Assembly: GCA_017625065.1 (NCBI GenBank)
Contig: JAGALS010000094.1
Coordinates: 1 to 36,301 of the forward strand
DNA length: 36,301 bases
Origin: Clostridia bacterium
GTDB taxonomy: Bacteria; Bacillota; Clostridia; Oscillospirales; CAG-272
Direction of reading: 5' to 3'
Part shown: positions 4,068 through 22,901 of the stretch, one piece after another
Numbering within the stretch: the first letter of the stretch is position 1
How the letters are laid out: every line of letters begins with the position of its first letter
The notes under the pieces: model-generated
Seen by the model: the letters and a program-made list of their open reading frames with translations, nothing else
Databases searched by the model: none
Told to the model about the DNA's origin: nothing
Program-made: the position numbers and the translations under genes

Positions 4068-5087
4068 TCAATTTGCGCCGATCAGCGCGTAAAGCACGGT
4101 GCGGATCTCGTCAAGGCTTTCGGCGTGTGTCAGCGCCTCCCTTGCGGCTGCGGCACCGCGCAAGCCCTTACAATACCATAGCATATGCTTGCGCGCCTCG
4201 GCAAGTCCCATTCGCTCGCCCTTTCTTTTCACCATATCGGCGGCGTGGAAGAGCGCTGTATCAATGCGTTCCTTGTCGGTCGGCGGTGTATAGGGCTTAC
4301 CCTCGTCCATCGCGATGATTTCGGAAAAAAGAAAGGGATTGCCCATCGCGCCTCTCGCGATCATCACACCGTCGCATTCTGTTTCCTCTCGCATGCGGCG
4401 CACGTCCGCGGCGCAGAACAGATCGCCGTTGCCGATAACGGGGATACAAACGGCGCGCTTGACCGCGGCAATGACACGATTATCGCTTGACGGTGCGTAA
4501 AATTGCTGACGTGTGCGCCCGTGCACGGTAATGAGATCGGCGCCCGCCGCCTCGAGTCGCTTTGCAAATTCGGGGGCGTTTTTGCTGTTTTCATCCCACC
4601 CCGCGCGGATCTTTGCGGTCACGGGCAGCTTCACCGCATCCTTCACGGCGCGCACGATCGCGGCGGCGCGCTCGGGATCGCGCATCAGGGCGCTACCCTC
4701 GTTATTGCCGACTACCTTATGCACGGGACAGCCCATATTGATGTCAATGGCGGCAGGGGAGCATTCGCTTTTCGCGCCGCGATAGCTGCCCGATTCCAGC
4801 AGCATCGCCGCTTCTCTCATAAAATCGGGCTCACTGCCAAACAGCTGGATCGCCATCGGGGCTTCCTTCTGCAGAATATCGGCAAGCGGTGCGGTGCGCA
4901 CGGGAGCTGTGGCTTTGGAGCGCTGCTCGAAGCACAGCGCCTTTGCCGAGACCATCTCGCTGACGGTATATTCGGCACCGTATTGGCGGCAAAGTAACCG
5001 AAAGGAGGTGTCACTCACGCCCGCCATCGGGGCGAGCAACAGACCGTGAGGGAGCGTGTGCGCCCCGATCTTCAGCGGAGCCATCAT
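4068..5087 (-). CDS. dus: tRNA-dihydrouridine synthase
   Basis: FMN enzyme that reduces uridine to dihydrouridine in the D-loop of tRNAs. The 339 residues form the Dus TIM barrel followed by the helical C-terminal domain. Motifs: LAPMAGVSD near 18, the catalytic cysteine in DINMGCP (Cys120), TAKIRAGWD, the FMN phosphate motifs GNGD and ARGAMGNP. It resembles the DusB branch most, which is the usual Firmicutes type. The start ATG overlaps the stop of the upstream SGNH hydrolase gene by 4 bp (ATGA), so the two are translationally coupled; a second ATG follows immediately. murI lies downstream on the same strand. Confidence 0.93.
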   Translation of the reverse strand: MMAPLKIGAHTLPHGLLLAPMAGVSDTSFRLLCRQYGAEYTVSEMVSAKALCFEQRSKATAPVRTAPLADILQKEAPMAIQLFGSEPDFMREAAMLLESGSYRGAKSECSPAAIDINMGCPVHKVVGNNEGSALMRDPERAAAIVRAVKDAVKLPVTAKIRAGWDENSKNAPEFAKRLEAAGADLITVHGRTRQQFYAPSSDNRVIAAVKRAVCIPVIGNGDLFCAADVRRMREETECDGVMIARGAMGNPFLFSEIIAMDEGKPYTPPTDKERIDTALFHAADMVKRKGERMGLAEARKHMLWYCKGLRGAAAAREALTHAESLDEIRTVLYALIGAN

Positions 5088-5728
5088 CCGTTATACAAAC
5101 GTGTCATACGGCACGCCTCGGTGTGGATCTTCTGGCAGAGCTCGGGCGGAAAGCCCGCTTCCACGCCGGGATCGCAAAGGTCATTTACGTTGATGATGCG
5201 CTTGCGGCCCGTCACGGTATAAAAAACAGTCGCGGCGGCAAGATAGCTGCCGATGGGGGTGGCGTGATTGCCGTCCTCGTGATAGAGGGTGTCGGGCGAC
5301 TCGGAGAGCAGGATGCGCGAAAAGACCTCACCCGCGGGGGCAAAGTGGCAGCCCGCCTCGCGGCAAAAGCTGTGGTAAGCCTCGGTCATCGGAAGCTGTG
5401 TCTCACGGTGGTTGCGCCCTGCCCAGGGCATATACAAATAAAACGCAGAGCCCGCCCGATCGGCAAGGTCCTTCAGCGCCTTGGCGCTTTCCCTGAACGA
5501 CACCGGATCAAACCCCGTGGCGCGCTCCTGCGCGATGATGGCATCGTATTTTCCGCAACGGATATTGAATACCGTGTGCGGATTATTTAAAAGATGGCGC
5601 AGATCCTTGCCGCCCTCGGTCAGCATCGTTACGTGCGCCTTTTGACCCGTCGCCTCCAAAAAGCGCATCACGGTCTCGGGCATCGAATTATAATATGTAT
5701 GGCTATTGCCGATGAATAACAGCTTCAT
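5084..5728 (-). CDS. SGNH/GDSL-family hydrolase
   Basis: 214-residue esterase-like protein of the SGNH superfamily, likely an acyl- or acetyl-esterase. Block I is FIGNSHT with the presumed nucleophile Ser9; block V is HEDGNHATPIG, giving Asp152 and His155 of the triad. It resembles the DUF4886 group. No signal peptide, so it is probably cytoplasmic. The ATG at 5728 has AGAGGTGG upstream; the frame could start 26 codons earlier but that stretch overlaps the promoter. First gene of the run with dus (4-bp overlap) and murI, driven by a consensus promoter at 5760-5788. Its substrate is unknown. Confidence 0.85.
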   Translation of the reverse strand: MKLLFIGNSHTYYNSMPETVMRFLEATGQKAHVTMLTEGGKDLRHLLNNPHTVFNIRCGKYDAIIAQERATGFDPVSFRESAKALKDLADRAGSAFYLYMPWAGRNHRETQLPMTEAYHSFCREAGCHFAPAGEVFSRILLSESPDTLYHEDGNHATPIGSYLAAATVFYTVTGRKRIINVNDLCDPGVEAGFPPELCQKIHTEACRMTRLYNG

Positions 5729-5759
5729 GGTCCACCTCTTGATAAATCTTTGCTTTACT

Positions 5760-5788
5760 ATCATATCATAAAGAAGGGAAGGTGTCAA
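5760..5788 (-). promoter_or_regulatory. Promoter of the SGNH hydrolase-dus unit
   Basis: On the minus strand: TTGACA (5788-5783), 17-bp spacer, TATGAT (5765-5760). Confidence 0.8.
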
Positions 5789-5988
5789 GAAGGATATGAA
5801 TGACATTTTTGCGATCGGCTGCTGTTGCGGCTCTTATGCGTAGCGCAAGGAAAAAATGCCAAGCACCCCAAACTTTTCATCGCAAAATACTGCCTTTGAG
5901 GGCGCTTGTTCCGTCTCCTTCGACCAAAAGCCTCGCAACATCCGTGTTTTCTTGCGTGTGCCGTCGTTTTCGGGCGACCGATTGGGGC

Positions 5989-6018
5989 TTGACCGCGGCG
6001 TGCCCCTTGTGGTAGTAT
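5989..6018 (+). promoter_or_regulatory. Promoter of the lipoprotein gene
   Basis: TTGACC (5989-5994), 18-bp spacer, TAGTAT (6013-6018), 45 bp before the ATG at 6063. The rest of the 334-bp gap (5729-6062) contains the divergent promoter at 5760-5788 and nothing else I recognise. Confidence 0.55.
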
Positions 6019-6062
6019 CGTGGCACACAGCCCCAAAACGGGCAAAAAAGGAGGAAGAAAAA

Positions 6063-6788
6063 ATGAAGACTTGGAAAATGGCAGGATGCCTGCTGCTCCT
6101 ATGCGTGATCATCTGCGGATGTGTGGTGATGGGCAAGAGCACTGAGGTATCAGCGGCAGAGAAACAACCGACCGAAGAAAACGAGCAGCAAGCAGAGCAG
6201 CCCGAGCAGCAGCCCGAGGCAGCTCCCCCGACAAGCGAGGAGCCCGTGCAAGAGGGCAGCACCACGGTGAACAAAAGCTATAGCGAGGGGCTGTATTTTC
6301 GCAGCAACGGTGACGGGACCTGCGCCCTTGCGGGGATGGGGAGCTGCACGGCGGCGTGCGTGCTGATCCCACCGCAAAGCCCGCTTGGCGACACGGTGAC
6401 CGAGATCCTGCCCGGGGCGTTTGCGGGCAGCATCGTGGGGTCGATCGAGATCCCCACGACGGTCACGGTGCTTTCCGCCGCATCCTTTTCGGGCTGCGAG
6501 CGCCTTGCTTACGTGCGCGTGGCGGCAGGGAACGAAGCGCTGCTTGAATCGGACGGCGCGCTGTATACGGCGGATGGCAGTATGCTGCTTTATTGCCCCG
6601 CAGGGAGAAGCGCGCGGAGCTTGACACTTCATAAAAGCATAAAGCGCATCGCGGCGGGGGCATTTGCAAGCTGCGGCGCCTTGGATACCGTTTATTTTAC
6701 GGGCTCCACGGCGGAATGGCATAACATCATCGTGGGAGATGAGAACAATGCCCTTTACGCGGCACGCCTTTGCTTTACGGCATCGTAA
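6063..6788 (+). CDS. Putative lipoprotein with leucine-rich-repeat-like (BspA-type) C-terminus
   Basis: 241 residues. A Lys-containing N-terminus and hydrophobic stretch end in the lipobox-like I-I-C-G-C (Cys20), so a membrane-anchored surface lipoprotein is likely. Residues about 30-65 form a Glu/Gln/Pro-rich spacer. The rest has short units such as VTEILPGAFAGS, TVTVLSAASFSGC and IKRIAAGAFASC. These match the BspA-type (LRR_5) leucine-rich repeat, where each unit has I-G-x-x-A-F-x-x-C. Such domains mediate surface contacts. AAAGGAGGAAG precedes the ATG. Ends with an incomplete repeat (TVYFTGSTAEWHNI), typical of the family. Partner unknown. Confidence 0.75.
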   Translation: MKTWKMAGCLLLLCVIICGCVVMGKSTEVSAAEKQPTEENEQQAEQPEQQPEAAPPTSEEPVQEGSTTVNKSYSEGLYFRSNGDGTCALAGMGSCTAACVLIPPQSPLGDTVTEILPGAFAGSIVGSIEIPTTVTVLSAASFSGCERLAYVRVAAGNEALLESDGALYTADGSMLLYCPAGRSARSLTLHKSIKRIAAGAFASCGALDTVYFTGSTAEWHNIIVGDENNALYAARLCFTAS

Positions 6789-6840
6789 AAAACGGCTTTT
6801 TGTCAAAAAGGTGCCAAACGGGTCGGTTTTTTCGCGTTTT

Positions 6841-6869
6841 TCATATTCCCGTTGCCGCTTGCATATAGT
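6841..6869 (+). promoter_or_regulatory. Sigma-E-like sporulation promoter
   Basis: TCATATT (6841-6847), 14-bp spacer, CATATAGT (6862-6869). The known Bacillus sigma-E consensus is KMATATT, 14-15 bp, CATACAHT; the -35 fits fully and the -10 differs at two positions. It lies 30 bp before a SipL-like gene, which in C. difficile belongs to the mother-cell programme. Confidence 0.6.
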
Positions 6870-6898
6870 ATAGCAATTCCGAGCAAAGGAGAAAACGT

Positions 6899-8440
6899 AT
6901 GGAAAGAAACGAGGAACGAAACGGCCGCGTGCAATTGGAATTCACCGATAAGACGCAGCCCGTGGAGCACACGGCAGAGATCGCTCTGCCCGATTATCGC
7001 AGTGAGATCAGTCGGCTGCTATGGGTGCGACCCATTTTTATGCCGCCCACGCATTTTATCGGGGGCGGCAAGGCGGATTTTTCGGGACCCGTTCGCTACA
7101 ATATTCTTTATACGGGCCCGGACGGTGCGCTTTACAGCGCCGATAGCGAGGAGGACTATGCCTTTTCGGTGCCGCTGGAATCGCTTGCGGATTTTGATAT
7201 GTCGGAAGGGATCGCGCTCTCGGCGGAGCTTTGTCCCGATGCCGTTATCAGCCGCGTAACGGGGCCGCGCAAGCTGTCGGTCCGCTGTCGGATGCGTGTG
7301 CGTGTCAAGGGGTACGCGGTCAAAAATCTGACCCCGCATCTGAAGGGCGATGATGAAAAAGAAGATGACGTTCGCCGTCTTTGCGATATGGCGGAAAGCG
7401 GTCGTGTGCTCATTGGCGAGAGCGAGCGATTTGAGCTGAGCGATCAGTTTGAGCCCGATGCGGGAGAAGGAGAATTGCGCCTTATTTGCGCGAACGGTAG
7501 CGTTTTTTTGCCCGATGTGACAGCTTCAAGCGATACGGTCCGCTGTCGGGGCGAGGCGGTGATCTCTGTGATGCTTTGCCGCGAAAGCAGCAGCAAAGAG
7601 CAGGGCGTGCCCTTCACGGCGGTGCGCCGCATTCCCTTTGAGCAGGAGGTCGATGTCAAGGGGATAACACCCGAATGTGATGCCCGTGCTATGGGCACGG
7701 TCGGGGGTATTGACGTCACGGTCGAGGATGGCAGGGTGCAGCTGAATGCGCAGCTCTCTCTGCACGCCGAGGGGCAGACCGAGGAGGGCGTTTTGCTTTG
7801 CCGCGACGTCTTTTTGCCCGGCTCGCGTGCCGAATGCCAGATGCGTGAGGAAAAGCTGTGGCGCGCAGGGAGCTGCGGCAACCGCAATTTCAGTGTTTCG
7901 GGTGAGCGTTCGCTCGCCGAGCTTGGCGTGCCTTCCGATATCAATGTCTTGTATAGCTTTGCCGATGCCGAGGTCAAGGAGCATCACACAAAGGGCGAGC
8001 GTGCTGCACTTAGCGGAGAGATGCATTGCCACGTGCTTTACAGCCGCGAGGGTGAATACGGCGTCGCCGAGCTTACGGTGCCGTTTTCCACAGCGCTGGA
8101 GAAGGACGAGGACGATATCAGCGTGCAGTGCTGCGTTCCCGTGTGTCGGGTAAGCATTTCGCGGGATGCGCTGCGCGCCGATGCCGAGATCCAGCTCGCG
8201 CTGCGCTGCAGCAAAAGCTCTCCCGTCAAGATTTTGTCGGAAGCGACCTTTGTCACGTCCCAACCGATGCCTCGCGCGGATCTTGAGATCTGCTATCCCA
8301 CGGAGGATGACACACTGTGGAACGTGGGTAAGCGCTATGGGGTGTCGCCCGATGTGCTCGCCGCCGCCAACGGCCTTTCTGCCGAGGCACCGGGCGAGGC
8401 CGATTCCTTGCAGGGTGTGCGCTATTTATTGATACCGTGA
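6899..8440 (+). CDS. SipL-like spore protein (SPOCS/DUF3794 domains plus LysM)
   Basis: 513 residues, close to the size of C. difficile SipL. The body contains repeated SPOCS (DUF3794) units, seen as beta-rich stretches such as LSVRCRMRVRVKGYAV, VRCRGEAVISVMLC and AALSGEMHCHVLY. The last 50 residues form a LysM domain (EDDTLWNVGKRYGVSPDVLAAANGL). In C. difficile, SipL binds SpoIVA through its LysM domain and is needed to assemble the spore coat around the forespore; the role here is inferred from this match. ATG 6899 follows AAAGGAG. A sigma-E-like promoter lies upstream and a repeat with T-tract hairpin downstream. Other clostridial SPOCS-LysM proteins share the layout, so orthology to SipL is likely but not proven. 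Confidence 0.85.
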   Translation: MERNEERNGRVQLEFTDKTQPVEHTAEIALPDYRSEISRLLWVRPIFMPPTHFIGGGKADFSGPVRYNILYTGPDGALYSADSEEDYAFSVPLESLADFDMSEGIALSAELCPDAVISRVTGPRKLSVRCRMRVRVKGYAVKNLTPHLKGDDEKEDDVRRLCDMAESGRVLIGESERFELSDQFEPDAGEGELRLICANGSVFLPDVTASSDTVRCRGEAVISVMLCRESSSKEQGVPFTAVRRIPFEQEVDVKGITPECDARAMGTVGGIDVTVEDGRVQLNAQLSLHAEGQTEEGVLLCRDVFLPGSRAECQMREEKLWRAGSCGNRNFSVSGERSLAELGVPSDINVLYSFADAEVKEHHTKGERAALSGEMHCHVLYSREGEYGVAELTVPFSTALEKDEDDISVQCCVPVCRVSISRDALRADAEIQLALRCSKSSPVKILSEATFVTSQPMPRADLEICYPTEDDTLWNVGKRYGVSPDVLAAANGLSAEAPGEADSLQGVRYLLIP

Positions 8441-20393: not shown

Positions 20394-20740
20394 GAAGAAA
20401 GGAGGTACAAGCCAATGGCAAGGTAAACAAAGCCGAAGAAACCTTAGGTGCAAAAAACAAAACACGGCGGTGTAACGCTTTATATAAAGGAGAAAACAAG
20501 TTCTATCAGATAAAGCCCGCGCCTTTTGCAAGCAGTGTGTGAAACGGAAGATGGAAGTGATCTTACGAAAAGATCGTCTCAAGTGAGAGAGTGGTGTGTG
20601 TCGGAGTGTTTGATGATGCTATGCAAAGGGTAGACAATAGAAAGAGAGGATCACAAAAGATGTTAGATATCAAGAGTGAACAGAAATGACCCTTGACCGA
20701 AGGTGAGCAACCACGGTCAAGGGTCATTTCTTTTTCTTTT
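20394..20740 (+). ncRNA. Candidate noncoding or peptide-encoding transcript of about 350 nt
   Basis: A unit bounded by a good promoter and a 16-bp perfect terminator but without a normal gene. It is purine-rich and lower in GC than its neighbours. Small perfect hairpins include GCC-AAT-GGC (20411-20419), ACC-TTA-GGT (20441-20449), CAC-GGCG-GTG and GATCTT-ACGAA-AAGATC (20559-20575). It also has two Shine-Dalgarno-like sites followed by tiny frames: AAAGGAGG then Met-Ala-Arg-stop (20415), and AGAGAGGATC then a 9-codon frame (MLDIKSEQK) ending in the terminator stem. I see no conserved core of tmRNA, RNase P or SRP RNA. Either a structured RNA or a micro-peptide message. Confidence 0.5.
20684..20740 (+). 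terminator. 16-bp perfect terminator of the candidate ncRNA
   Basis: AAATGACCCTTGACCG (20684-20699) pairs perfectly with its complement at 20714-20729, followed by CTTTTTCTTTT. Confidence 0.92.
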
Positions 20741-20749
20741 GACGCGTAC

Positions 20750-20778
20750 TTGACAAAAGGCGGAAGATATGATATGAT
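20750..20778 (+). promoter_or_regulatory. Promoter of the tRNA-Leu transcript
   Basis: TTGACA (20750-20755), 17-bp spacer, TATGAT (20773-20778). Confidence 0.8.
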
Positions 20779-20784
20779 AAATGC

Positions 20785-20933
20785 GCTTCGCGGCGATCCT
20801 TGCCGCGAAAAAGAGGGCGCTTGCGGAAGATCCCGAAGCGTCAAAGCAAGCGGGCGTGACGCGGACCCATTCCGCCACGCCCACGAAATTCGCGGGCGTG
20901 TGCAGATTCATTCCGCCGCACCCGCATAATAAT
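20785..20933 (+). promoter_or_regulatory. Structured 150-nt leader with segments antisense to the tRNA
   Basis: Between promoter and tRNA lie TTCGCGGC-7 nt-GCCGCGAA (20787-20809), GCGGGCGTG at 20850-20858 and 20892-20900, ATTCCGCCACGCCC at 20869-20882 and an 18-nt ATTCCGCC... segment at 20910-20927. GCGGGCGTG is also the tRNA's own 5' start. The 14-nt segment at 20869-20882 is exactly complementary to tRNA bases 20936-20949. The leader can therefore form alternative pairings with itself or with the tRNA 5' half. Confidence 0.7.
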
Positions 20934-21016
20934 GCGGGCGTGGCGGAATTGGCAGACGCGCCAGATTTAGGATCTGGTGAGCATTCGTGCAGGTTCAAGT
21001 CCTGTCGCCCGTACCA
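20934..21016 (+). tRNA. tRNA-Leu (TAG anticodon)
   Basis: 83 nt, class II. The acceptor GCGGGCG pairs with CGCCCGT (first pair G-U), followed by A73 and an encoded CCA. Anticodon stem CCAGA/TCTGG encloses TTTAGGA, giving anticodon TAG, which reads CTA and other CTN codons. A variable arm (TGAGCATTCGTGC) and T-arm GCAGG-TTCAAGT-CCTGT are present. The last 13 nt form the start of a perfect 27-bp inverted repeat. Confidence 0.95.
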
Positions 21017-21064
21017 ATACAAAAGGGGAGTCTTGCGCTCCCCTTTTGTATTGGTACGGGCGAC
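21004..21064. repeat. Perfect 27-bp inverted repeat containing the tRNA-Leu 3' end
   Basis: 21004-21030 pairs perfectly with 21038-21064 across TCTTGCG. The left arm begins with the last 13 nt of tRNA-Leu (GTCGCCCGTACCA), so the right arm carries an inverted copy of the tRNA end. The inner ACAAAAGGGGAG/CTCCCCTTTTGT stem with its T-run can act as the tRNA terminator. Confidence 0.92.
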
Positions 21065-21300
21065 AAGCTCGCAGAGCCTGCCTTGCGCGAAGCGCAAGGC
21101 AGGGAAAAAACGCGAAGCGTTTTTTCAGCGCAAGTCCGAAAGGACTTGGCGCAACAAGTAGGCGGCGGAGCCGCCGTCTGTCGCCCGGAGAGCGCTCTTG
21201 CGCTCCCCTTTTGTATTGGTACGGGCGACAAGCTCGAAGAGCCTGCCTTGCGCGAAGCGCAAGAGCAGGGAAAAAGCGCTTACTTTTTCGTGTTTTGAGA
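21065..21300. repeat. tRNA-Leu tail cassette: hairpin series with an 80-bp direct repeat
   Basis: In order: CCTGCCTTGCGC-GAA-GCGCAAGGCAGG (21077-21103), AAAAAACGC-GAA-GCGTTTTTT (21105-21125), CAAGTCC-GAAA-GGACTTG (21131-21148), GGCGGC-GGA-GCCGCC (21161-21175), then CTGTCGCCCG (21178-21187), a direct copy of tRNA-Leu 21002-21011. The stretch 21031-21109 is then repeated almost exactly at 21196-21274. No ORF is credible. Confidence 0.85.
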
Positions 21301-21383
21301 ATACCGTCTTGCTATTTTGGGTAAAATGATGCTTGTCGAGGCAATATTATTGCCGAAAGAGCATCTTTTCCTTTGAAAAGCAC

Positions 21384-21412
21384 TTGACACACGGGGTTTT
21401 GCGTGATATAAT
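21384..21412 (+). promoter_or_regulatory. Perfect promoter of tRNA-Gln
   Basis: TTGACA (21384-21389), 17-bp spacer, TATAAT (21407-21412), 29 bp before the tRNA. Confidence 0.9.
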
Positions 21413-21440
21413 AATAACGCTTTCCAAAAAAGCCCAATAT

Positions 21441-21515
21441 AGGGATGTCGCCAAGCGGTAAGGCACCAGACTTTGACTCTGGTATTCGTAGGTTCAAATC
21501 CTGCCATCCCTGCCA
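21441..21515 (+). tRNA. tRNA-Gln (TTG anticodon)
   Basis: 75 nt. Acceptor AGGGATG pairs with CATCCCT; discriminator G and encoded CCA follow. Anticodon stem CCAGA/TCTGG encloses CTTTGAC, anticodon TTG, reading CAA/CAG. T-loop GGTTCAAATC is normal. The last 17 nt are repeated exactly at 21670-21686. Confidence 0.95.
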
Positions 21516-21554
21516 ACAAAAAAGCCACCCACACGGGTGGCTTTTTTGTTGGCA
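21511..21554 (+). terminator. 20-bp perfect hairpin terminating tRNA-Gln
   Basis: 21511-21530 pairs perfectly with 21535-21554 across ACAC. The left arm begins with the tRNA's last five bases (TGCCA); the core AAAAAAGCCACCC/GGGTGGCTTTTTT is a classical terminator. Confidence 0.9.
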
Positions 21555-21686
21555 AAGACGGCAGAGCCGCGAAACGACGCAGCGCTCCGCGCGGCGTAGG
21601 GCAAGTTGCCAAAGGCAACTTAGCGCCAAGCGCGAAGCGTTTGGCAGACAAATAGGCGGCTTGCCGCCGTCCTGCCATCCCTGCCA
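21516..21686. repeat. tRNA-Gln tail cassette, 171 bp, ending in a 17-nt copy of the tRNA 3' end
   Basis: Between the tRNA end TCCTGCCATCCCTGCCA (21499-21515) and its exact copy (21670-21686) lie the terminator hairpin, ACGC-A-GCGC-TCC-GCGC-G-GCGT, AAGTTGCC-AAA-GGCAACTT (21603-21621), CCAAGCGC-GAA-GCGTTTGG (21626-21644) and GGCGGC-TT-GCCGCC (21655-21668). TTGGCAAAGACGGCAG after the terminator looks like a worn inverted copy of the tRNA end. The flanking direct repeats resemble attachment-site duplications. Its first 90 bp recur at 22698-22790. Confidence 0.85.
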
Positions 21687-21720
21687 GAAAAAAGCACTTG
21701 CGTGAGCAAGTGCTTTTTTC
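21687..21720 (+). terminator. Second terminator, after the duplicated tRNA end
   Basis: GAAAAAAGCACTTGC pairs perfectly with GCAAGTGCTTTTTTC across GTGA. It follows the copied tRNA end as a tRNA terminator would, so it may be the original tRNA-Gln terminator displaced by the cassette. Confidence 0.88.
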
Positions 21721-21723
21721 AAC

Positions 21724-21898
21724 GAAATTTGCCCTTCGGGCAAGTGAAATAGCTTCGCTGTGAAATATTTGCTCCGCAAATGTGAAATATTCGCTGACGC
21801 GAATGTGGGCAAATTTCATTTCACATTGCGACGAAGGAGCAATATTTCACAATTCACGAAGTGAATTATTTCACATTCGGCGTAAGCCGAATATTTCA
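21724..21898. repeat. Array of seven hairpins joined by GTGAAATA / TATTTCAC
   Basis: Stems: TTGCCC-TTC-GGGCAA (21729), AGC-TTC-GCT (21751), ATTTGC-TCC-GCAAAT (21767), ATTCGC-TGAC-GCGAAT (21789), ATTGC...GCAAT (21825), AATTCAC-GAA-GTGAATT (21851), ATTCGGC-GTAA-GCCGAAT (21875). The first four are joined by GTGAAAT(AT), the last three by its complement ATTTCACA. Stem sequences differ while pairing is kept. GAAATTTGCCC (21724-21734) and GGGCAAATTTC (21808-21818) enclose the first half. Confidence 0.88.
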
Positions 21899-21900
21899 CT

Positions 21901-22008
21901 AAAAGCTTACGACTCTGAAGTTTTTCGAAATTTTTGTAGATGCATTTCCGCGCGGAGCTTTGCTCGCGCATCTTTTCGGTCTGTAGACAGATTCGAACCG
22001 GCGAAATG
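21901..22008. other. Remainder of the gap before the low-GC gene; possible tRNA remnant
   Basis: Contains a GC-rich hairpin (GATGC...GCATC around 21938-21972, with GAGC-TTT-GCTC) and GATTCGAACC near 21990. The latter is the complement of a tRNA T-loop (GGTTCGAATC). It may be a degraded tRNA end on the minus strand. No ORF. Confidence 0.35.
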
Positions 22009-22037
22009 TTGAAATGTTTACAAAATTGTGGTATAAT
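22009..22037 (+). promoter_or_regulatory. Promoter of the low-GC gene
   Basis: TTGAAA (22009-22014), 17-bp spacer, TATAAT (22032-22037). Confidence 0.7.
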
Positions 22038-22060
22038 GATATCAGAAGGGCGGTGACGCT

Positions 22061-22540
22061 ATGATTTACGGAACAATCATACAAAAAGGAGAAAAATATT
22101 ACACCTTTCTCAAAAAGCTTTTTGAGTCAATCGATAATATTCAGTTGAATTACAAATGGCTAATTTCTCATCCGGAGTGCTACCCATTTGATAAGGATAT
22201 TCAAAAAACATTAGAACAAGAATATTGTATATTGACAGGAAAAGAGTTGACCGATTTGATCAACAAAGAAGATTTTCAATGGATATGGGGAACTTTTTCG
22301 GCATTTGATCCATCAACATCTGACAAAGATATATTAGAATACAAGCTTCCCGAAAACGATATGTACCCTGGATTTTGGAAAAACCCATTCACAATACAAC
22401 ACCCTTTAGCCAAAATAGAAATCGTTGCATTCGATTCATCATATACCTTGATCTTCACAAAAGATTTTACTTTACCTGAAAGATTCAAGGAATTTTATCC
22501 TTTGGCAGAGGATTTGGAGTTGGTTAATCGCTCTTTATAA
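22061..22540 (+). CDS. Low-GC orphan protein, possibly DUF2691-like
   Basis: 159 residues, soluble, acidic and aromatic-rich, starting MIYGTIIQKG. The pattern (FLKKLFESID, YKWLISHPECYPF, LTGKELTDLI, then DSSYTLIFTKD) recalls the small DUF2691-type proteins of Firmicutes, but this is a weak, by-eye match. AGGGCGGTG precedes the ATG. Base composition is far more AT-rich than the surrounding core genes and codon choice (ATA, AGA, TTA) differs, so acquisition by transfer is likely. It is flanked by direct copies of the tRNA-Gln cassette (21515-21604 and 22698-22790). Small orphan genes like this can be immunity proteins; nothing here shows that. Confidence 0.7.
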   Translation: MIYGTIIQKGEKYYTFLKKLFESIDNIQLNYKWLISHPECYPFDKDIQKTLEQEYCILTGKELTDLINKEDFQWIWGTFSAFDPSTSDKDILEYKLPENDMYPGFWKNPFTIQHPLAKIEIVAFDSSYTLIFTKDFTLPERFKEFYPLAEDLELVNRSL

Positions 22541-22697
22541 TACATAGGCTTCGTTACAAGCATGGCGTTAAAAGTCCGGTAGAACGCGGAGTCTTTTAAC
22601 TCCCATCATCGCCAAGGGGGTAGTGTACCCTCTGCAAAATCATCGTGCGTCTAAATCAGCCACACACGGTTTTGCATCTAAATCGGACACACGTCAC
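22541..22697. other. Gap without a recognised gene
   Basis: Contains a short degenerate direct repeat, TCTAAATCAGCCACACACG and TCTAAATCGGACACACGTC (about 22650-22693), just before the second cassette copy. AAAAGTCCG near 22570 pairs loosely with a later stretch. No ORF or clear RNA. Confidence 0.35.
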
Positions 22698-22790
22698 AAC
22701 AAAAAAAGCCACCCACACGGGTGGCTTTTTTGTTGGCAAAGACGGCAGAGCCGCGAAACGACGCAGCGCTCCGCGCGGCGTAGGGCAAGC
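22698..22790. repeat. Second, truncated copy of the tRNA-Gln tail cassette
   Basis: Matches 21515-21604 over about 90 bp: the AAAAAAGCCACCC terminator hairpin (with one extra A), GGCAAAGACGGCAGAGCC and the GCGC-TCC-GCGC hairpin, ending at GTAGGGCAAG. The second half and the tRNA-end copy are missing and no tRNA precedes it. Confidence 0.9.
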
Positions 22791-22816
22791 ATTTTTTAAC
22801 AGGCAATATAAAGAAT

Positions 22817-22855
22817 TTACATCGTAATTTGCCTTGCAAAAATTTTCCTTTCCAT
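22817..22855 (-). pseudogene. Possible remnant of a gene start downstream of the GH43-like gene
   Basis: On the minus strand AAGGAG sits 6-7 nt before an ATG (22855) that opens only 12 codons (MERKIFARQITM) before TAA. The cassette copy begins about 25 bp further. This looks like the head of an operon gene whose remainder was lost next to the inserted repeat, or a chance micro-ORF. An IR TTCCATAAC...GTTATGGAA (22850-22877) overlaps it. Confidence 0.3.
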
Positions 22856-22901
22856 AACCGTTCTCCTTGTTATGGAATATGAAAAGGTAAAATACCAAAG
22901 A

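Follow-up and report, generated by a model that had tools for sequence, protein, structure and literature searches.

The closest known kind to the units described here are the tRNA-linked repeats (TLRs) of Escherichia coli. These repeats were first described in 1978 and, according to PMC8144298, they comprise 22 units at ten loci, in which the 18–19-bp 3' end of the repeat is the same as that of the tRNA or rRNA gene upstream. The same paper describes the unit rrB as lying between dual terminators, being transcribed by readthrough and interacting with Hfq and CsrA, and it states that before the work of 2021 on three rRNA-linked TLRs no function was known for any TLR (PMC8144298). The element rtT has been connected with the BIME repeats (PMC2965389). 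A passage search of PMC8144298 did not find the word "inverted", and an older description of an inverted copy in E. coli may exist.

The window analyzed here, that is, the whole stretch of 36,301 bases, is an entire contig (G000:C89) of a genome of 1.99 Mb in 97 contigs with a completeness of 88% (G000). In it, a cassette of hairpins stands behind each of the genes for tRNA-Leu and tRNA-Gln and carries backward and forward copies of the 3' end of the tRNA that precedes it. These cassettes represent a genus-wide variant of the E. coli TLR layout, and the link to TLRs is new as far as the searches show; a survey of titles and opening passages, mostly in openly accessible literature, found no such units in like bacteria.

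The tRNA-Leu and tRNA-Gln units

The features of both units are collected in Table 1, where A denotes the 3' half of the tRNA, T1 the first terminator-type hairpin, A' the inverted copy and T2 the second terminator-type hairpin. The order proposed in a preliminary description of this DNA (tRNA end, terminator hairpin, inverted copy, hairpins, a GGCGGC..GCCGCC hairpin and a direct copy) is present in both cassettes, and the tRNA-tail layout of the window is confirmed as real.

Table 1. Features of the two tRNA-linked units in the window (positions in the 36,301-base stretch)
Feature	Position	Strand	Basis or remark
Sigma-70-like promoter upstream of tRNA-Leu, TTGACA-17-TATGAT	20750..20778	+	Consensus promoter scan, 11/12
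tRNA-Leu(TAG)	20934..21016	+	ARAGORN; 3'-most 14 nt inside first arm of 28-bp inverted repeat
T1 of tRNA-Leu, terminator-type hairpin: perfect palindrome, 7-nt loop	21017..21051	+	By eye; absent from consensus terminator scan
A', inverted copy of tRNA-Leu 3' end, TGGTACGGGCGACA	21052..21065	+	
Leu hairpin body, last hairpin GTAGGCGGC..GCCGCC	21066..21177	+	
Direct copy, 10 nt of tRNA-Leu 3' end	21178..21187	+	Predicted fold: paired with A'
Second tandem unit, beginning only (right terminator arm, A', first hairpin)	21188..21275	+	80 nt at 93%
Sigma-70-like promoter upstream of tRNA-Gln, TTGACA-17-TATAAT	21384..21412	+	Consensus promoter scan, 12/12
tRNA-Gln(TTG)	21441..21515	+	ARAGORN
T1 of tRNA-Gln, terminator-type hairpin: perfect 20-bp stem, takes in the final 5 nt of the tRNA	21511..21554	+	Absent from consensus terminator scan
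A', inverted copy of tRNA-Gln 3' end, partly decayed	21550..21564	+	90% over 30 nt
Gln hairpin body, last hairpin ATAGGCGGC..GCCGCC	21565..21669	+	
Direct copy of tRNA-Gln 3' end, exact 17 nt through CCA	21670..21686	+	
T2, second terminator-type hairpin: perfect 15-bp stem, T run	21687..21720	+	Absent from consensus terminator scan
Partial second copy of Gln T1, A' and first hairpins	22697..22789	+	92 nt, 99% identical; overlooked in the preliminary description

Behind tRNA-Leu there is a perfect inverted repeat of 28 bp (21003–21030 and 21038–21065), of which 14 nt lie within the tRNA; the repeat had been recognized before, with lengths of 27 bp and 13 nt that did not stand. The recurrence of 10 nt of the tRNA end, CTGTCGCCCG, at 21178–21187 is as reported, and this direct copy is limited to those 10 nt and ends before the CCA. 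The longest exact matches of the tRNA-Leu end are 14 nt for the inverted copy and 10 nt for the direct copy, and the maximum in the swapped controls is 7 nt for each of them. Past the direct copy there is a repeated stretch of 80 nt (21196–21275, 93% identity) that had been overlooked.

Behind tRNA-Gln, the perfect inverted repeat of 20 bp, with 5 nt in the tRNA, was correctly described and continues to 30 nt at 90% identity (21501–21530 and 21535–21564). The final 17-mer of this tRNA, TCCTGCCATCCCTGCCA, has an exact second occurrence at 21670–21686, again as previously claimed, and the second terminator that was placed after it is indeed a terminator-type hairpin with a T run. This direct match of 17 nt exceeds the swapped-control maximum of 12 nt; the inverted copy beyond the hairpin has a longest exact match of 6 nt, with a control maximum of 9 nt, and is by that measure not above control.

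The three hairpins (T1 of each tRNA and T2) were called terminators by eye, on the basis of a G+C stem and a T run, which here pairs with an A run, and they are not among the calls of the consensus terminator scan of the window. Open reading frames of at least 100 aa over the two units overlap tRNAs and hairpins and, by eye, seem spurious. An RNA driven by a promoter on the opposite strand was also considered, given that A' and A form an inverted repeat, and it was rejected after a scan of 20700–21800 gave a single weak minus-strand promoter (9/12), located at the 5' end of tRNA-Leu.

Occurrence of the units in the genus

The source loci come from 20 genomes of the same genus and from 18 genomes that belong to the order but to other genera. 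With other tRNAs masked, every terminal tRNA that had 350 nt or more of downstream sequence was scored for inverted and direct copies by local alignment, and tRNAs of other isotypes served as the background. Four genus genomes (G000, G004, G018 and G020) gave 156 tRNA hits, and in them an inverted or direct copy stands above background at 53 of the 106 terminal tRNAs with the required downstream length (26 inverted, 45 direct, 18 both). These loci were taken by tRNA, but the genomes were hand-picked: G018 and G020 consist of few contigs, and cassettes had already been seen in G004 and G020. The swapped-tRNA control in the same genomes gave a mean of 1.3 per 106 (range 0–4, 40 rounds). The positive loci are distributed as 9 of 21 in G000, 12 of 29 in G004, 12 of 28 in G018 and 20 of 28 in G020. 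In the larger genus set, which was partly recruited by similarity to the cassettes of the window, 84 of 154 terminal tRNAs exceed the 99% background (49 inverted, 65 direct, 30 both), and the corresponding figure for other genera of the order is 1 of 23 (loci from 15 of the 18 genomes, mostly tRNA-Leu and tRNA-Gln). The units form a genus-wide class behind about half of the sampled terminal tRNAs. The swapped-tRNA controls exclude chance, or a generic richness in hairpins, as an explanation of the class.

In G000, direct copies of 10–18 nt occur no more than 400 bp behind tRNA-Gln, Leu-cag, His, Gly-gcc, Thr-ggt, Tyr, Ser-gct, Leu-tag and Ala; tRNA-Gly(tcc) and tRNA-Val(tac) also have direct matches of 11 nt, which fall in the next tRNA gene and were left uncounted. 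One locus (L131) was called tRNA-Tyr and has an end identical to that of tRNA-His. The preliminary description had made its reading depend on duplicated ends at other tRNAs of the genome and its relatives and on the existence of empty sites. Many other tRNAs of this genome and of its relatives do have duplicated ends, and tRNA-Gln is found without a cassette in six loci of the same genus (L101, L103, L107, L109, L112 and L114), where other DNA follows; these six are cassette-free loci and not proven clean empty sites.

Boundaries of the copies and tracking of tRNA alleles

The inverted copies begin at the final A of the CCA in 37 of 49 cases. They reach back 26–29 nt, to the start of the T-arm, at 21 loci, less than 23 nt at 14, 23–24 nt at five and 30–36 nt at nine. 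The direct copies, in turn, run exactly to the tRNA end in 31 of 65 cases (12–30 nt, some mismatched), and 44 of the 65 start in the T-loop or T-stem, at a distance of 17–18 nt (10 copies), 21–22 nt (23) or 25 nt (11) from the tRNA end. At several loci there are tandem second units that lack the CCA and the left terminator arm.

When each copy is compared with its own tRNA and with the allele of the same tRNA in another species, the own allele fits better, equally or worse in 102, 17 and 6 comparisons for the inverted copies and in 105, 11 and 0 for the direct copies; the copies are shown to track the tRNA allele of each species. In 30 loci there are 15 positions at which the tRNA and the direct copy differ, and at all 15 of them A' sides with the tRNA, a count that is biased in that the loci were selected and aligned by their match to the tRNA. 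A changed T-loop, GCGAGAA, in the A' of tRNA-Gly(gcc) recurs across species and, together with the common skeleton of these loci described below, makes A' look inherited, not recopied, and points to selection. The change of the inverted T-loop to GAGAAC is present at 16 of the 84 genus loci and also in E. coli tyrT and proK. It was rejected as a general A' motif and is retained as a hint, given its presence in both E. coli and the genus, of a shared constraint on the RNA.

Hairpin bodies and predicted folds

The bodies between the copies consist of hairpins of several kinds. The GGCGGC..GCCGCC ending belongs to one of them, and the pattern TAGGCGGC..GCCGCC has seven matches in G000, four in cassettes and three outside. 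In the body class named B, compensatory changes are found at 7 of 14 predicted pairs (20 sequences). A class-B model built from cassette sequences finds matches in three of the four genus genomes, with 150 candidates scored per genome, and 19 of the 24 matches with E up to 1e-5 lie at most 450 nt downstream of a tRNA on the same strand, which is partly so by construction. The five remaining matches are located on contigs C15 (three), C14 and C10 (one each) of G020; the one in C14 lies about 1.7 kb behind tRNA-fMet and is accompanied by a copy of the tRNA-fMet end. Outside the genus, where the filters were stricter than in the within-genus search (28 candidates scored per genome), class B was found in a single genome (G034) among 196 others of the order. 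The match lies in a genome of another family, at positions 1–170 of a contig (L297, G034:C40), and is a cassette of tRNA-Arg(ccg) that hardly differs from its counterpart in G020, a result of either transfer or contamination.

Bodies behind different tRNAs are related to one another in 152 blastn alignments with E up to 1e-6, of which 28 are within-genome and at least one pair reflects a miscalled tRNA; this relatedness shows that some spread or gene conversion takes place. In tRNA-Gly(gcc), 14 aligned loci from 11 species have a common skeleton formed by A', a hairpin, a branched class-B arm (replaced in some loci by a shorter or longer element), another hairpin and the direct copy, with stems that are outright different between species and keep their pairing. 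Of 13 tRNA-Gly loci folded singly and read by eye, 8 have A' and the direct copy paired with each other so that they enclose the hairpins, and 5 do not. Since the stems fail to align with one another, the RNAalifold consensus of the 13 loci comes out weak (-9.5 kcal/mol). In the window, the predicted fold of the Leu unit pairs A' with the direct copy, and that of the Gln unit leaves A' unpaired with it. The median fold z-score is -2.9 for cassette regions vs. -1.7 for cassette-free downstream regions, with overlapping distributions, and values below -3 are reached by 14 of 30 cassette-bearing and 10 of 30 cassette-free regions; stability alone separates the two poorly.

Comparison with TLRs and other known systems

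Among 48 genes of E. coli K-12, whose loci were hand-chosen and some of which share one copy, an inverted copy is above background at four (tyrT, tyrV, lysQ and lysV) and a direct copy at six (tyrT, tyrV, argZ, argY, argV and proK). The inverted copy of tyrT and tyrV reads GGGGAAGG[GA]TGAGAA[CG]CTTCGA, and these two loci have the same layout as the genus units, inverted copy included. Two tyrV units pair A' with the direct copy when folded, and the argQ and rrfB units do not.

The likeness extends to other traits: the genus units sit immediately downstream of a tRNA, with exceptions away from tRNAs, they are tandem at some loci and rich in hairpins, and where T2 is present their position between two terminator-type hairpins is comparable with that of E. 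coli rrB between two terminators. The 18–19 bp that E. coli units have in common with the gene end have a variable counterpart: 31 of 65 genus copies reach the tRNA end (12–30 nt, some mismatched), and in the window the Gln copy has 17 exact nt through CCA and the Leu copy 10 nt that end before it. There are also differences. The genus units are denser, with 20 of 28 terminal tRNAs in G020 compared with 22 units at ten loci in E. coli (PMC8144298), and the genus tRNAs usually adjoin a hairpin of the terminator type with a long inverted copy, whereas inspection by eye showed none right behind tyrV of E. coli. The covariance model of RtT (RF00391) gave no hit over its gathering score in any of 21 genus genomes, with a positive E. 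coli control, the two sub-threshold loci have no tRNA in about 3 kb, and RtT is not among the 39 Rfam matches up to E = 5 in 20900–22900 of the window. The genus units have a TLR-type layout with unrelated sequence, that is, the layout is shared and the RtT sequence family is not.

Other systems resemble the units in single traits. Integrative elements that target tRNAs likewise have a direct copy of the tRNA 3' end, which marks their far boundary, and the genus units differ from them in their size of about 170 bp, the inverted copy, the host-tRNA-specific ends and the fact that no integrase was seen in the genus units; a canonical element of this type was rejected in view of the small size and the missing integrase. 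The dispersed hairpins recall REP/BIME repeats with their RAYT (Y1) transposases, and GTAG, a hallmark of REP sequences, precedes the final hairpin of the Leu unit, but the genus units are anchored to tRNA ends. A search for Y1_Tnp in 21 genus genomes gave a match in 10 and none in G000 (88% complete), G004 and G018, and since these three have 9, 12 and 12 positive loci a REP/RAYT system was also rejected.

As to known RNA families, Rfam at the gathering score returned tRNA and Gut-1 (RF01706) only, and a known family was rejected as the identity of the cassettes. The two Gut-1 matches, at 21720–21793 on the plus strand and 21813–21901 on the minus strand, form one palindromic hairpin array right after T2, and arrays that look similar by eye also follow tRNA ends in L101, L122 and L077. 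Such palindromic arrays adjoin the cassettes (21720–21901 in the window) and belong to a separate Rfam family, the cassettes themselves having no match to RF01706. The Leu unit gave no match to phages, the Gln unit gave two short weak matches of 34–39 nt to plasmids, and a phage or plasmid origin was rejected on these results.

Origin and possible function

The likeliest origin of the units is replication template switching between neighboring palindromes, the T-arm and the terminator, a reading that we infer from the anatomy and to which we give about an even chance; the main rival is a maintained readthrough RNA, and a copying origin and an RNA function can both be true. Behind a tRNA, the noncoding units run from A through T1 and A' to the hairpin body and the direct copy of A, in many cases with T2 after it. 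Their arrangement A-T-A'-A would arise if the nascent strand folded back at the terminator and copied the acceptor strand and the T-arm backwards, after which a second fold-back, at the T-arm, would permit forward copying. Later fold-backs would keep renewing the match between A' and the tRNA, tandem units would be created or removed as direct copies recombine, body hairpins could be exchanged among loci, and occasional readthrough of T1 might yield a small structured RNA ending at T2, as in E. coli rrB (PMC8144298).

Two fold-backs would give rise to an A' that runs from the CCA to the T-arm, to the tracking of the tRNA and to perfect terminator stems, and an A' that matches the tRNA where the direct copy differs, as seen in the 15 of 15 positions of the biased comparison, is a prediction of fold-back from the adjacent palindrome. 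It has been argued that a single event of template switching can create perfect hairpin stems, and the part it plays in their maintenance is called less clear (PMC8794818). The frequency of the units in the genus, the folds that pair A' with the direct copy and the like layout of E. coli tyrT and tyrV also count in favor of this reading. Several observations stand against this origin: no switch event was caught between sister strains, the A' of tRNA-Gly(gcc) looks inherited, both copies are above background at just 18 of the 53 positive loci (30 of 84 in the larger set), the origin of the bodies and the incomplete tandem second units are unexplained by the model, and the Gln unit of the window folds without pairing of A' and the direct copy. 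The preliminary description had offered two readings and is partly supported: template switching at hairpins agrees with the anatomy and is itself inferred, and the mini-element class using tRNA tails stands as a class, whereas a usual mobile element is not supported, given that no encoded recombinase was seen, that the ends are tRNA-specific and that the copies track alleles. The likeness to TLRs was not drawn in that description.

It is possible, although we consider it clearly less probable than template switching, that the units are maintained as structured RNA, in which readthrough of T1 would produce a branched RNA from T1 to T2 with a closing stem made by the tRNA's own end. Such an RNA would act as a small RNA or in tRNA maturation, and selection would hold A' and A matched. 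The compensatory changes of class B, the skeleton kept at 14 tRNA-Gly loci despite the turnover of stems, with A' and the direct copy paired in 8 of 13 folds, and the position of 19 of 24 class-B matches behind a same-strand tRNA (partly by construction) are consistent with this, as is the readthrough of rrB between dual terminators and its interaction with Hfq and CsrA (PMC8144298). But about half of the sampled terminal tRNAs have no unit, the bodies vary widely across tRNAs and species, the RNAalifold consensus is weak, the fold z-scores overlap, and template switching could itself maintain the pairing.

That a trans-acting enzyme inserts mini mobile elements at tRNA 3' ends, leaving the direct copies as target duplications, seems unlikely. 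Such insertion fits the 31 of 65 direct copies that end exactly at the tRNA end, the cassette-free loci of the genus, the related bodies behind different tRNAs, the copies away from tRNAs (G000 C94 and G020 C15) and two weak matches (1.5e-4) in which a body is inverted behind tRNA-Gly(ccc) of G020 C14; the tRNA- and allele-specific ends, however, are unlike a fixed attachment site, no Y1 transposase was found in G000, G004 and G018 in spite of their positive loci, and a phage search with the Leu unit returned nothing, a plasmid search with the Gln unit two short weak matches. We regard it as very improbable that the cassettes are the edges of larger tRNA-anchored islands, built by successive insertion of gene-bearing modules after the CCA. 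This reading would account for the tRNA-fMet end copies of G020 C14, which lie beyond ORFs of 117 and 235 aa, and for the alternation of cassettes and ORFs with a recurring GCATCTAAAT..CACAC motif in G020 C15 and at position 22697 of the window, but it leaves A' unexplained, and most cassettes read adjoin the tRNA directly with no ORF between.

The units suggest that tRNA 3' ends can undergo repeated backward and forward copying, which matters when duplications of tRNA ends are taken as marks of integrated elements. The genus, which is unrelated to E. coli, also offers many natural replicates, in the form of alleles, cassette-free loci, tandem arrays and shared bodies, so that the origin (copying vs. 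insertion) and the function (selection vs. drift) are directly testable. More tentatively, TLRs might be a general class present in unrelated bacteria, that is, RNA units closed by backward and forward copies of the tRNA 3' half, renewed by fold-back and read through between dual terminators, an extension that we find doubtful.

Related sequences at other positions

Cassette-like sequences were also seen apart from the ends of tRNA genes. On the minus strand of L054 (G000:C94:41000-43500, ~1480–1220), a Gln-type cassette follows another terminator-type hairpin, with no tRNA found nearby, and a truncated second unit comes after it. In L276 (G020:C15), ORFs alternate with class-B cassettes at 4982–7700, an array for which integron gene cassettes were considered. 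Of the three terminators in it, two have GCATCTAAATTGACCACACTAGCC ahead of them, and the motif GCATCTAAATCGGACACACGTCAC, which is related, stands before position 22697 of the window. In L277 (G020:C14), two copies of the tRNA-fMet 3' end are located within 396–2600, 1.8 and 2.1 kb downstream and past several ORFs, the product of one of which presumably resembles small four-helix-bundle proteins. Finally, L004 (G000:C51:109595-112667) contains a run of tRNAs at 110893–111488, two of which are followed by the near-identical spacers AAAGGCGCAGACAGCGATTTTTTTCGCACCGAGG; this run is possibly a phage-like tRNA cluster.
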